From the NCBI GenBank assembly GCA_022425485.1, contig JAKMFL010000051.1:62001-126000 (forward strand): a DNA stretch of 64,000 nucleotides, given 5' to 3'. Below the pieces are notes generated by a model. That model saw only the letters and a program-made list of their open reading frames with translations, did no database searches and was not told where the DNA came from. Of the stretch, positions 1 through 3,671 are shown in pieces. The stretch is from Alphaproteobacteria bacterium (GTDB taxonomy: Bacteria; Pseudomonadota; Alphaproteobacteria; Puniceispirillales; Puniceispirillaceae). The position numbers were made by a program, and so were the translations under genes. The first letter of the stretch is position 1. Every line of letters begins with the position of its first letter.

Positions 1-204
1 TGGTCCTTTCAAGCCCTGCCGCGCTTAGGGCGCTATATCGCTCGTGATGAAGCGGCCTACCGGTATCTTGCCGAATCAATTCGAATGTTCCCGCGCCCAG
101 AAGCCTTGGCTGCCGCTTTTGGAGAAGCAGGGTTTGGACAGGTACGAATACGCAGCCTATCTAGCGGGATTGCCGCCATTCATTCTGGCTGGAAGCTGGA
201 TTAA
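1..204 (+). CDS. ubiE: UbiE, C-terminal part (5' end outside window)
   Basis: The frame is open from base 1 to a TAA at 202-204 and encodes about 67 residues. It ends in SGIAAIHSGWKLD, the hallmark C-terminus of the UbiE/MenG C-methyltransferase family, preceded by a YRYLAESIRMFP segment also typical of UbiE. UbiE adds the ring C-methyl group in ubiquinone (and, where present, menaquinone) synthesis, using SAM. The catalytic methyltransferase core lies upstream of the window. The stop codon shares a base with the ATG of ubiB (TAATG), so the two are translationally coupled. Assignment rests on the C-terminal signature only. Confidence 0.9.
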   Translation, partial: WSFQALPRLGRYIARDEAAYRYLAESIRMFPRPEALAAAFGEAGFGQVRIRSLSSGIAAIHSGWKLD

Positions 205-1700
205 TGGATATTTTTCTGATTCTTTGGCGATTGCCGCGCACAGGCTTTATTTTAGGGCGGGCTGGTGTTTTGGGGCATCTCGCTAAAATTGATATGCTAC
301 CAGACTGGTTTTGCCGTCTTCTGTTAGTGCTGAATTTTCTTATCGCCGGGCGGAAATCGCGTAAGGATGCTGGGCAGGCCTTGTGTGAAGCACTGCAGGC
401 ATTGGGGCCGGGCTTTATTAAATTTGGGCAAGCGCTGGCAACCAGAGCAGATTTAATTGGCCCAGAGCTAGCCGGTGGGTTGGTACAATTACAAGACAGG
501 CTGCCCCCATTTTCAGGCAAAAGAGCTATCAAAATTATCGAAGATTCCTCGCAAAGGCCGCTTTCTGAGCTGTTCACCTCTTTTGATGAAGAGGCAATTG
601 CCGCCGCCTCTATTGCACAAGTACACAAAGCCCGCCTAGCTGATGGGCGCGTTGTGGCGGTAAAAATATTACGCCCCGGCATTGCCAAACTTATGCGCCG
701 CGATGTGCGGTTTTTCCGCGCCATGGCCAGATTAGCCGAAGCTGTTGCCCCGGGCTTGCGCCGCTTAAAGCTGGTTACAGCTGTTCAACAATTTGAGCAA
801 ATTTCCGATATCGAGCTTGATTTACGAATGGAAGCAGCGGCAGGAACGCGTCTGCAAGAAAATATGGCCAATGATAAAGGCATTCGTATTCCTCATATCG
901 ACCTTGAGCGCACGAATAGCCATATGCTGGTGATTGAATGGATTGAGGGAATTCGCATTGATGATGTAAAGGCCTTGCAAGCAGCAGGGCATGATATCGC
1001 CAAAATAACCGAAGCCGCGGCAACCAGCTTTTTCAATCAAGTTTTTCGGGATGGCTACTTTCATGCCGATATGCATCCCGGCAATATTTTTGTCACCGCA
1101 GATGGGCTGCTCGTTCCGATAGATTTTGGCATTATGGGACAGCTAGATTTTGCCGACAGATTGTTTTTGGCACGGTTACTAGATGCTATCCTGAAACGTA
1201 ATTATGATGAGGTGGCACGTCTGCATTATGATGCTGGCATGCTAGATGATAGCGTATCCTTAGCTGCTTTTTCGCAAAGTCTTAGGGCGGTTGCCGATCC
1301 GGTGCTTGGCAAGGCACTTGGCGACATCTCGCTTGGCCTTGTGCTTGGCCAGATATTACAAATCTCTGCACGGTTCGACATTTCGGTTCAGCCGCAATTT
1401 AACCTCCTGCAAAAGACCATGATGATGGCAGAAGGCGTGGCTAGAAGCCTAAACCCTAGCGCCGATATGTGGGCGTTTGCGCGGCCGCTTGCCAGTGACT
1501 GGATTAGCTCAGAAGATAATATTCGTGCACAAATAGACCGAGTGCTATCAGATTTTCGCCAGCTTTACCTGAAACTGCCACAGATTCTAGAAAAGCTGGA
1601 TACAGCACCGCCGCCGCCGCCGCCAGCCTCGAGATGGCCCTATCTTATTGCCGCTATTTCTGTTTTGATTGCCCTTTACAGCACGCTCCCTGTTCACTAG
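204..1700 (+). CDS. ubiB: UbiB, ABC1/ADCK-type atypical kinase of ubiquinone synthesis
   Basis: A 498-residue protein of the UbiB/COQ8 family, needed for ubiquinone biosynthesis at the inner membrane, probably as an ATPase-like accessory of the Ubi complex. The family's KxGQ motif is KFGQ at residues 73-76. The Ala-rich loop AAASIAQVH is at about 133-141 and the ATP lysine is in VAVK at about 151-154. The catalytic HADMHPGN motif is near 287-294, followed by the DFG motif in PIDFGIMG. A hydrophobic C-terminal segment after about residue 475 is the expected membrane anchor; just before it lies a run of prolines encoded by (ccg) repeats. It overlaps ubiE by one base. Confidence 0.95.
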   Translation: MDIFLILWRLPRTGFILGRAGVLGHLAKIDMLPDWFCRLLLVLNFLIAGRKSRKDAGQALCEALQALGPGFIKFGQALATRADLIGPELAGGLVQLQDRLPPFSGKRAIKIIEDSSQRPLSELFTSFDEEAIAAASIAQVHKARLADGRVVAVKILRPGIAKLMRRDVRFFRAMARLAEAVAPGLRRLKLVTAVQQFEQISDIELDLRMEAAAGTRLQENMANDKGIRIPHIDLERTNSHMLVIEWIEGIRIDDVKALQAAGHDIAKITEAAATSFFNQVFRDGYFHADMHPGNIFVTADGLLVPIDFGIMGQLDFADRLFLARLLDAILKRNYDEVARLHYDAGMLDDSVSLAAFSQSLRAVADPVLGKALGDISLGLVLGQILQISARFDISVQPQFNLLQKTMMMAEGVARSLNPSADMWAFARPLASDWISSEDNIRAQIDRVLSDFRQLYLKLPQILEKLDTAPPPPPPASRWPYLIAAISVLIALYSTLPVH

Positions 1701-1727
1701 AATGTGAAAAATTCACAATTTTGTGAA
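1693..1727. promoter_or_regulatory. Two operator-like dyads upstream of coaBC
   Basis: Two copies of the 16-bp dyad TTCAC-N6-GTGAA lie at 1693-1708 (TTCACTAGAATGTGAA) and 1712-1727 (TTCACAATTTTGTGAA), with centres 19 bp apart. The first overlaps the end of ubiB and the second ends 32 bp before the coaBC ATG. Paired dyads so close to a start are typical of repressor operators. The binding protein is unknown; the HTH-like N-terminus of CoaBC itself is a candidate (inference). Confidence 0.5.
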
Positions 1728-1734
1728 ATCTTGA

Positions 1735-1746
1735 CCTCTACAGAGG
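1735..1746 (+). other. Small hairpin CCTCT-AC-AGAGG before coaBC start
   Basis: Perfect 5-bp arms around a 2-base centre, 13 bp before the coaBC ATG. The GAGG in its 3' arm is the best purine-rich stretch in the leader, although it is rather far from the start. The loop is too tight for a stable RNA hairpin unless it opens by a pair. It may be chance. Confidence 0.25.
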
Positions 1747-1759
1747 CGATTGAGAACCG

Positions 1760-3226
1760 ATGAGCGATTTCAAAACTATTTTGGATGCCGCAATCCAGCA
1801 GCTTGGCGGTAATGAAACCGTCCAAAAACTATTAGGCGTGGGCGCAAGTGCACTTTCCAATTATCGCCAGCGTGGCCAGCTACCTGCGGCAAAACAAGCC
1901 ATATTAGAAGCTGAACTTGCCCAGCAAGGCTGGTATTTAGATTTAGAAGGCTTGCAATTTACCCCGTTAAATTCTGGCCAGCAAAGGCGCGTTCTGTTGT
2001 TGATAACAGGCGGCATCGCAGCCTATAAGGCGCTAGAGCTGGCACGCCGATTGATGGATAAGGGCTATCAGATACGCGGCGTAATGACCAAATCAGCAAT
2101 GGAATTTATTACCCCGCTTAGCCTGTCAGCCCTAACCGGAGAGAAAGTTTTTACAGAGCTATTTTCGCTGACCGACGAAGCAGAGATGGGACATATAAGG
2201 CTTGCACGCGATGCGGACATTGTGCTGGTCGCCCCCGCTACTGCTAATTTTCTGGCTAAAATGGCACATGGCCTAGCAGATGACTTGGCGAGCACAATCT
2301 GTCTTGCAACAGATTGCCCCGTGATGATTGCACCGGCAATGAACCCGAATATGTGGGCGCATCCTGCAACACAAGCTAATCTAGCAACCTTAAAACAAAG
2401 AGGGGTCGCGCTGATAGCCCCCGAAGATGGCGATACAGCTTGCGGAGAGATAGGCACCGGCAGGCTAGCCGAACCAGCGGTGATTATCGCGGCTATTGAC
2501 AGGCTACTGGCCCCGCAACAAGCCCCGCCCCTGCTATCTGAGGCGCCAGTCAAAGGCTTAATTGGGCGGCATATCCTGGTCACTTCTGGGCCTACTTATG
2601 AGCCCATTGACCCGGTGCGTTATATCGCTAATCACTCTTCTGGTAAGCAGGGGCATGCGCTAGCAGAAGCGTGTGCAAAAGCAGGAGCAAAAGTCACCCT
2701 TGTAAGCGGGCCTGTACATATACCCGATCCAGAAGGGCCAGACACAGAAGGGGTGAAGACTATCCATGTGACGACCGCGCAAGAGATGTATGATGCCTGT
2801 ATCACTGCCCTGCCAGCAGATTGCGCAATTTGCGCCGCCGCCGTAGCTGACTGGCAGGTGGTTAATCATGGCACGCAGAAAATGAAAAAGACAAAAACAG
2901 GCATACCAAAATTAGAACTAGCCGAAAACCCAGATATCCTAGCCAGCCTGAGCCAGCACGCGGCGCGGCCAGATTTAGTCATTGGCTTTGCGGCAGAAAC
3001 AGAAAATTTACACCTGAATGCCCAAGCGAAACGACAGCGTAAAAAATGCGATTGGATTATAGCTAACGCTGTAGGCGGCAGTGGCGAAGACGCCGTATTT
3101 GGTCAGGATAATAATCGTGTTACCTTGATAGATGCGCACGGCCATGAAGATTGGCAGCAAACAAGTAAAGCAAAAATAGCCGCAAAATTAGTGGCCAGAA
3201 TAGAGAGGTGGTTTAATGAGGATTAA
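1760..3226 (+). CDS. coaBC: CoaBC with an extra N-terminal HTH-like domain
   Basis: Bifunctional phosphopantothenate-cysteine ligase / phosphopantothenoylcysteine decarboxylase of coenzyme A synthesis, 488 residues; the usual length is about 400. The CoaC flavoprotein part starts near residue 77 (VLLLITGGIAAYK). It has the PASANT-like APATAN near 157, PAMNPNMW near 192 and the catalytic-Cys region CGEIGTGRLAEP near 228. The CoaB part starts near 271 (HILVTSGPTYEPID), with AAVADW and the KMKK loop following. The first 70 or so residues are extra. They contain TVQKLLGVGASALSNYRQRG, which reads as a helix-turn-helix of the Cro/YdaS kind. The ATG at 1760 fits the leader, and no other start would give the standard length. 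The 3' end overlaps dut by 11 bases. Confidence 0.95.
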   Translation: MSDFKTILDAAIQQLGGNETVQKLLGVGASALSNYRQRGQLPAAKQAILEAELAQQGWYLDLEGLQFTPLNSGQQRRVLLLITGGIAAYKALELARRLMDKGYQIRGVMTKSAMEFITPLSLSALTGEKVFTELFSLTDEAEMGHIRLARDADIVLVAPATANFLAKMAHGLADDLASTICLATDCPVMIAPAMNPNMWAHPATQANLATLKQRGVALIAPEDGDTACGEIGTGRLAEPAVIIAAIDRLLAPQQAPPLLSEAPVKGLIGRHILVTSGPTYEPIDPVRYIANHSSGKQGHALAEACAKAGAKVTLVSGPVHIPDPEGPDTEGVKTIHVTTAQEMYDACITALPADCAICAAAVADWQVVNHGTQKMKKTKTGIPKLELAENPDILASLSQHAARPDLVIGFAAETENLHLNAQAKRQRKKCDWIIANAVGGSGEDAVFGQDNNRVTLIDAHGHEDWQQTSKAKIAAKLVARIERWFNED

Positions 3227-3671
3227 AGTAAGTTTTCAGAAATTGCCACATGCACAGGGCCTGTCCCTGCCAGCCTATGAAAGCGCTGGCGCCGCAGGTG
3301 CAGATATTCGTGCAGCCCTGCCAGATGGCCCCCTTACGCTTGCCCCAATGGCGCGCACGGCCATCCCTACCGGCCTTTGCATGTCCCTTCCTGATGGCTA
3401 TGAAGCGCAGATCAGGCCCCGTTCTGGACTGGCGCTAAAACAGGGATTAAGCCTTGTGAATACGCCCGGCACAATAGATTCTGACTATCGCGGCGAGATA
3501 AAGGTTATTGCGGTGAATTTAGGCGATACGGAGATAGAGATTACGCATGGCATGCGTGTTGCGCAAATGGTTATTGCGCCGGTCATTCAAGCAGAGTTTT
3601 ATGAGACCGAAATATTGGATGACACCGAAAGAGGAAGCGCAGGGTTTGGCTCAACGGGCACCGAAAGCTAA
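3216..3671 (+). CDS. dut: dUTP diphosphatase
   Basis: Trimeric dUTPase, 151 residues, hydrolysing dUTP to dUMP and pyrophosphate. This keeps uracil out of DNA and supplies dUMP for thymidylate synthesis. All five motifs are present: AGAAGADIRA (24-33), PRSGLA (68-73), NTPGTIDSDYRGE (82-94), RVAQMVIAPV (114-123) and the C-terminal RGSAGFGSTG (139-148) that closes over the active site. The ATG at 3216 follows a GAGAGGTGG ribosome site inside the end of coaBC, so the two genes are coupled. Confidence 0.97.
   Translation: MRIKVSFQKLPHAQGLSLPAYESAGAAGADIRAALPDGPLTLAPMARTAIPTGLCMSLPDGYEAQIRPRSGLALKQGLSLVNTPGTIDSDYRGEIKVIAVNLGDTEIEITHGMRVAQMVIAPVIQAEFYETEILDDTERGSAGFGSTGTES

Follow-up and report, generated by a model that had tools for sequence, protein, structure and literature searches.

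In the window, by which we mean the whole 64-kb stretch of DNA analysed here, two perfect inverted repeats lie just ahead of coaBC, and the product of this gene itself begins with a helix-turn-helix (HTH) domain. Does this enzyme of coenzyme A (CoA) synthesis bind its own promoter and, if so, to what effect?

Results

The preliminary description of this DNA had reported paired 16-bp dyads, with centres 19 bp apart, upstream of a coaBC gene whose product has an HTH-like N-terminus. Both features are borne out: each dyad is found exactly, with zero mismatches, and the gene encodes a CoaBC (TIGR00521) with an N-terminal HTH. Dyad 1 (TTCAC-N6-GTGAA, TTCACTAGAATGTGAA) spans positions 1693-1708 and dyad 2 (TTCAC-N6-GTGAA, TTCACAATTTTGTGAA) positions 1712-1727, neither being assigned to a strand, and together they make up an array of four half-sites, TTCAC-N6-GTGAA-N3-TTCAC-N6-GTGAA, whose likewise unstranded three-half-site core (GTGAA-N3-TTCAC-N6-GTGAA, 1704-1727) is an invariant block among relatives. 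A sigma-70 promoter, TTTACA-17-TAGAAT, is predicted on the forward strand at 1675-1703 and is the sole sigma-70-like match within 1500-1800; its hexamers and their spacing recur in one related locus (L006), and likewise, with TAAAAT, in another (L007). The promoter sits in the 3' end of a ubiB-like gene (ABC1 kinase-like, 204-1700, forward strand). Dyad 1 covers both the predicted -10 box and the stop codon of that gene (TAG, 1698-1700), an overlap absent from the preliminary description, and dyad 2 lies just 3' of the predicted transcription start. With the dyads over the predicted -10 box and start, the layout is that of an operator, at the usual place of a repressor site. Downstream on the same strand follow coaBC (1760-3226), which encodes 488 amino acids with the HTH fused to CoaC and CoaB, and the dUTPase gene dut (3216-3671), whose start overlaps the coaBC stop (3216-3226); dut is therefore probably co-transcribed with coaBC under the same putative operator.

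The HTH head comprises residues 1-55 of CoaBC (1760-1924, forward strand), with the recognition helix at residues 29-38 (ASALSNYRQR, 1844-1873, forward strand). Its Pfam matches, to HTH_17, YdaS and P22_Cro, all fall below the gathering score, and a profile built from 52 relatives matches prophage Cro proteins of solved structure (3bd1, E 1.2e-10; 5w8y, XPH1, 1.7e-8). The AF2 model of the head has a pLDDT of 91, and its top fold matches are Xfaso 1 Cro chains, with probabilities of 0.97-0.99 and a best rmsd of 1.3 over 45 columns; the Foldseek E value is only 0.15, and such weak values are common for domains this small. These matches indicate that the CoaBC head, about 55 residues long, is homologous to prophage Cro, and it was probably acquired from a prophage. 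In most pairs of close relatives the dN of the head is no higher than that of the enzyme part, with dS at about 0.3-1.8 in most, which argues that the head is kept by purifying selection; behind the head, the linker changes more quickly in most of these pairs.

A small stand-alone Cro-like frame was also seen in another genome (L200, G604, 2889-3041), beside a divergent CI-like repressor and an integrase-like gene. It resembles the heads of the sister family f4 (LISxLGGTGAVA), and a phage frame of this kind is a plausible source of the captured domain.

Behind the head, the CoaC-CoaB enzyme part (residues 75-481, 1982-3202, forward strand) gives a full-length match to TIGR00521 at 418.8 bits, against a curated cut-off of 219.7. 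Residues H145, N195, C228, N291, K374 and K376, at the positions expected to be catalytic, are invariant across 52 sequences. One chain therefore holds both an intact enzyme and a DNA-binding-type domain, and it is single-copy, with one CoaBC match in the window's genome (G000).

The fusion was then followed through two genome samples. In the order, 86 of 98 genomes have a CoaBC match, and the head is present on every copy that no contig end truncates, save one in G386; this plain CoaBC (G386:C79) is a probable contaminant, the bin being 7% contaminated and also holding a fused copy. In a class-wide sample of 289 alphaproteobacterial genomes, the matches that start from the head belong to members of the order only, and for about 150 other listed alphaproteobacterial CoaBC matches the first matched residue is 28 or higher, in nearly all cases 56-78. 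The match that begins at residue 28 (G294) was considered as a fusion outside the order and discarded, as it has no HTH. Among the best 80 named GTDB loci the head is present in three, all relatives of the window, and absent from 77. We rejected an HTH-CoaBC fusion elsewhere: outside the order, the nearest HTH relatives are phage Cro-like proteins and the N-termini of unrelated large proteins. SAR116 forms the order Puniceispirillales (PMC12262181), which is probably the order that carries HTH-CoaBC.

Large coiled-coil proteins of other Alphaproteobacteria, probably membrane-anchored, also match the Cro-like HTH profile at their N-termini (L199, G218, approximately 1240-1422; L203, G088, approximately 1144-1311). 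They are possibly another case of HTH capture and perhaps Mic60/mitofilin-like; in L203 the HTH shares an open frame with a preceding uroporphyrinogen-III-synthase-like stretch. In G088:C1 the same HTH-bearing gene recurs at 1534, 4143 and 4597479, around the ends of a single 4.6-Mb contig, the two near-start copies being in opposite orientation. This may be an assembly artefact.

To place the dyads against a background, the 110-bp upstream regions of 58 coaBC loci whose head has the SNY recognition helix were compared with 77 non-fused coaBC loci and with dinucleotide-preserving shuffles. The upstream regions of the SNY-head loci contain 153 GTGAA/TTCAC half-sites, whereas the shuffles give 13.6 (maximum 23), and 30 of the 58 loci have an exact dyad (N5 or N6 outward, N3 inward), against 0.02 expected. 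No exact dyad lies upstream of any of the 77 non-fused coaBC loci, nor in the first 110 bp of the 58 SNY-head genes themselves. None of the three common dyad types is found in exact form at the other 28 SNY loci, which nevertheless have half-sites; indeed half-sites occur in every member of all 16 SNY-type genera, 15 of which average at least two. When 11 closer relatives are aligned, nearly all columns without variation belong to half-sites (TGTGAA, TCAC and TTGTGAA), and the rest of the leader is unalignable. The preliminary description had raised the idea that the dyads track the HTH extension, and they do so: sites are kept with the head and are absent from CoaBC genes without it. Its judgement that four half-sites were unlikely by chance also stands. 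The region is A/T-rich, which would favour chance palindromes, but the 30 dyad-bearing loci against the shuffles, together with conservation across 16 genera, already refute that explanation, and we give it a negligible probability.

Outside this promoter the motif is rare. The zero-mismatch form of TTCAC-N6-GTGAA occurs twice in the 64-kb window, both times as the dyads described above, and three times in the 1.99-Mb genome, two of these being at coaBC. The third perfect site (C17:14174) is set between a divergent calcium-binding-repeat gene and an MFS-transporter frame, about 190-200 bp upstream of the latter; no second site was found beside it. In 41 genomes of the family, GTGAA-N3-TTCAC-N6-GTGAA with at most one mismatch is confined to the coaBC promoter apart from one match (G007:C6). 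The N5 form of two other families, TTCACANNNTGTGAA, has 11 sites in nine genomes, 10 of the 11 upstream of coaBC; the eleventh has a surface-protein-like gene on either side. The genome-wide scan suggested earlier thus finds the dyad nearly exclusive to coaBC, and a motif so rare elsewhere and so constant at one promoter suggests a regulator with a single target. A paralogue of the isolated head was sought in six genomes, and there is none in G000, G001 or G013.

The sole perfect TTCACAATTTGTGAA away from coaBC in the nine f2/f3 genomes (L206, G041:C7, 1484-1498) is flanked by a haemolysin-secretion-like outer-membrane gene on one side and a filamentous-haemagglutinin-like gene on the other.

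These scans also bear on whether the sites could serve a separate DNA-binding protein, such as a Crp/Fnr-like or other global regulator, with the HTH of CoaBC doing something else. TTCAC/GTGAA is a simple motif, and its one-mismatch dyad occurs 35 times in the window's genome, against 21 for the reversed control. However, 9 of 12 sampled one-mismatch sites are inside reading frames, as background would be, the strong sites are those found almost exclusively at coaBC, and sites exist only where the head is fused, with a half-site that changes together with the recognition helix (see below). We therefore regard a separate regulator as quite unlikely. A wider regulon was likewise set aside: the third perfect site is solitary, the one-mismatch sites are mostly within frames, and a second target is not established.

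The word TTCAC resembles the half-site of lambda Cro. The spacing between half-sites differs among lineages: N6 and N3 in the window's genus and in several more, N5 in families f2 and f3. In the genera without exact dyads, TTCA/TGAA words follow a 10-bp repeat, with 33 pairs at exactly 10 bp (0.29 expected) and 11 pairs at 20 bp (0.30 expected), one such phased array being TTCAC-N5-TTCA-N6-TGAA-N5-GTGAA. The geometries met among genera (N6+N3, N5, N4 and 10-bp phased direct repeats) are not predicted by a simple rigid Cro dimer. In the sister family f4, the recognition helix has SNW for SNY and LN for RG. GTGAA is not enriched upstream of the 27 f4 (SNW) coaBC loci; ATGAA/TTCAT words number 80 there, against 28.7 expected, and ATGAA-N4-TTCAT is present at 17 of the 27, against 0.03. 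The pairing of an SNW helix with an ATGAA half-site is suggestive of co-evolution between head and operator, this being essentially one clade change, with sites near the ubiB end.

The position of the sites bears on the direction of the effect. In L005-L007 they occupy the -10 box and positions +3 to +14, and several other relatives have them at or downstream of the predicted start; some relatives' promoter calls are weak, and there the position of the operator relative to the start is uncertain. Half-sites at about -24 from the predicted start in a few relatives would suit a head that binds the sites but activates coaBC, or one that acts chiefly on expression of the neighbouring ubiB or dut. 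Sites on the -10 box and just after the start, however, normally block initiation, so a role in activation or chiefly on the neighbours seems unlikely.

Could the palindromes instead work as RNA? The preliminary description had seen possible translational control in a small CCTCT/AGAGG inverted repeat (1735-1739/1742-1746, forward strand). This hairpin folds weakly (-5.8 kcal/mol, z -1.6) and is absent from the closest relatives, including L006 and L007; because it is not kept even there, the idea is unsupported, and we assign the repeat no function. The dyads themselves might form leader hairpins for attenuation or translational control, and the stretch 1693-1762 does fold better than shuffles (-17.1 kcal/mol, z -3.0), as any palindrome would. 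Yet the predicted start falls downstream of dyad 1, the letters of the half-sites stay constant with no compensatory change, and the 10-bp direct repeats of several genera cannot form a hairpin. The invariant letters, the part of the array upstream of the start and the non-conserved hairpin near the Shine-Dalgarno site led us to rule out control by RNA hairpins, which we hold to be highly improbable.

Discussion

We conclude that CoaBC of this order very probably plays two roles, as an essential enzyme of coenzyme A synthesis and as a repressor dedicated to the gene that encodes it. The Cro-type HTH fused to the N-terminus of CoaC would bind the TTCAC/GTGAA half-sites over the coaBC promoter and start; when CoaBC is abundant it would occupy the operator and block RNA polymerase, shutting the promoter from which coaBC and the overlapping dut are probably both transcribed. 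From the sequence evidence above we infer that CoaBC is the protein that binds, and the position of the sites suggests that it represses. A ligand might tune the binding, candidates being CoA thioesters, CTP, phosphopantothenate and FMN. The core of the autoregulation proposed in the preliminary description fits these results, with sites conserved alongside the head and nearly exclusive to coaBC; its hairpin and translational control do not.

The CoaBC of Mycobacterium is a dodecamer with CoaC at its core, and its CoaB activity is inhibited by CoA and acyl-CoAs (PMC7794376). That protein (PDB 6TGV) belongs to the same family, TIGR00521, as the CoaBC of the window but is without the HTH head. 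If the fused protein were assembled in the same manner, one particle would bear up to twelve heads, which would account for the use of phased arrays and varied spacings. By this analogy, several heads of one oligomer may grip phased half-sites together. A more speculative possibility, which we put forward tentatively, is that the CoaBC oligomer acts as a multivalent repressor that reads phased arrays, its grip being set by CoA thioesters or substrates on the enzyme. If true, such a repressor would be a direct sensor of CoA status, and the N6+N3, N5, N4 and 10-bp tandem arrangements would be alternative DNA engagements of the same particle.

Other enzymes carry DNA-binding domains. Archaeal RbkR, an HTH fused to riboflavin kinase, a vitamin/cofactor enzyme, controls a regulon, whereas the CoaBC of the window is a different enzyme, is bacterial, and appears to address a single promoter. 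The E. coli trigger enzymes BirA, NadR and PutA, like HTH-CoaBC, unite a metabolic enzyme with a DNA-binding domain, and these known examples control genes of their own pathways; PutA figures among the single-target regulators (PMC8249747), and the DNA-binding head of BirA is found only in some lineages (PMC5343134). HTH-CoaBC differs from them in its enzyme, in its Cro-type head and in having its own promoter as the only evident target. Prophage Cro proteins (Xfaso 1, 3bd1; XPH1, 5w8y; P22; N15) share a homologous HTH with the CoaBC head and use repressor-type operators of inverted half-sites at a promoter, but the CoaBC head is fused to an enzyme, is likely presented by an oligomer, and meets a half-site geometry that varies between genera. 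In the open-licence literature searched we found no report of CoaBC regulation by an HTH, absence there not being proof. The trigger-enzyme principle of the BirA/PutA type is already known; its use by CoaBC looks to be undescribed.

What is known of how CoA synthesis is controlled concerns mostly the feedback inhibition of enzymes, and regulation of coaBC transcription is seemingly undescribed in the open literature searched. The lineage series of operators and recognition helices offers a natural data set for the recognition code between Cro proteins and DNA. More broadly, the locus would be a case of regulatory domain capture, in which an essential cofactor enzyme has acquired the head of a phage repressor and retained it throughout an entire order of abundant marine bacteria.
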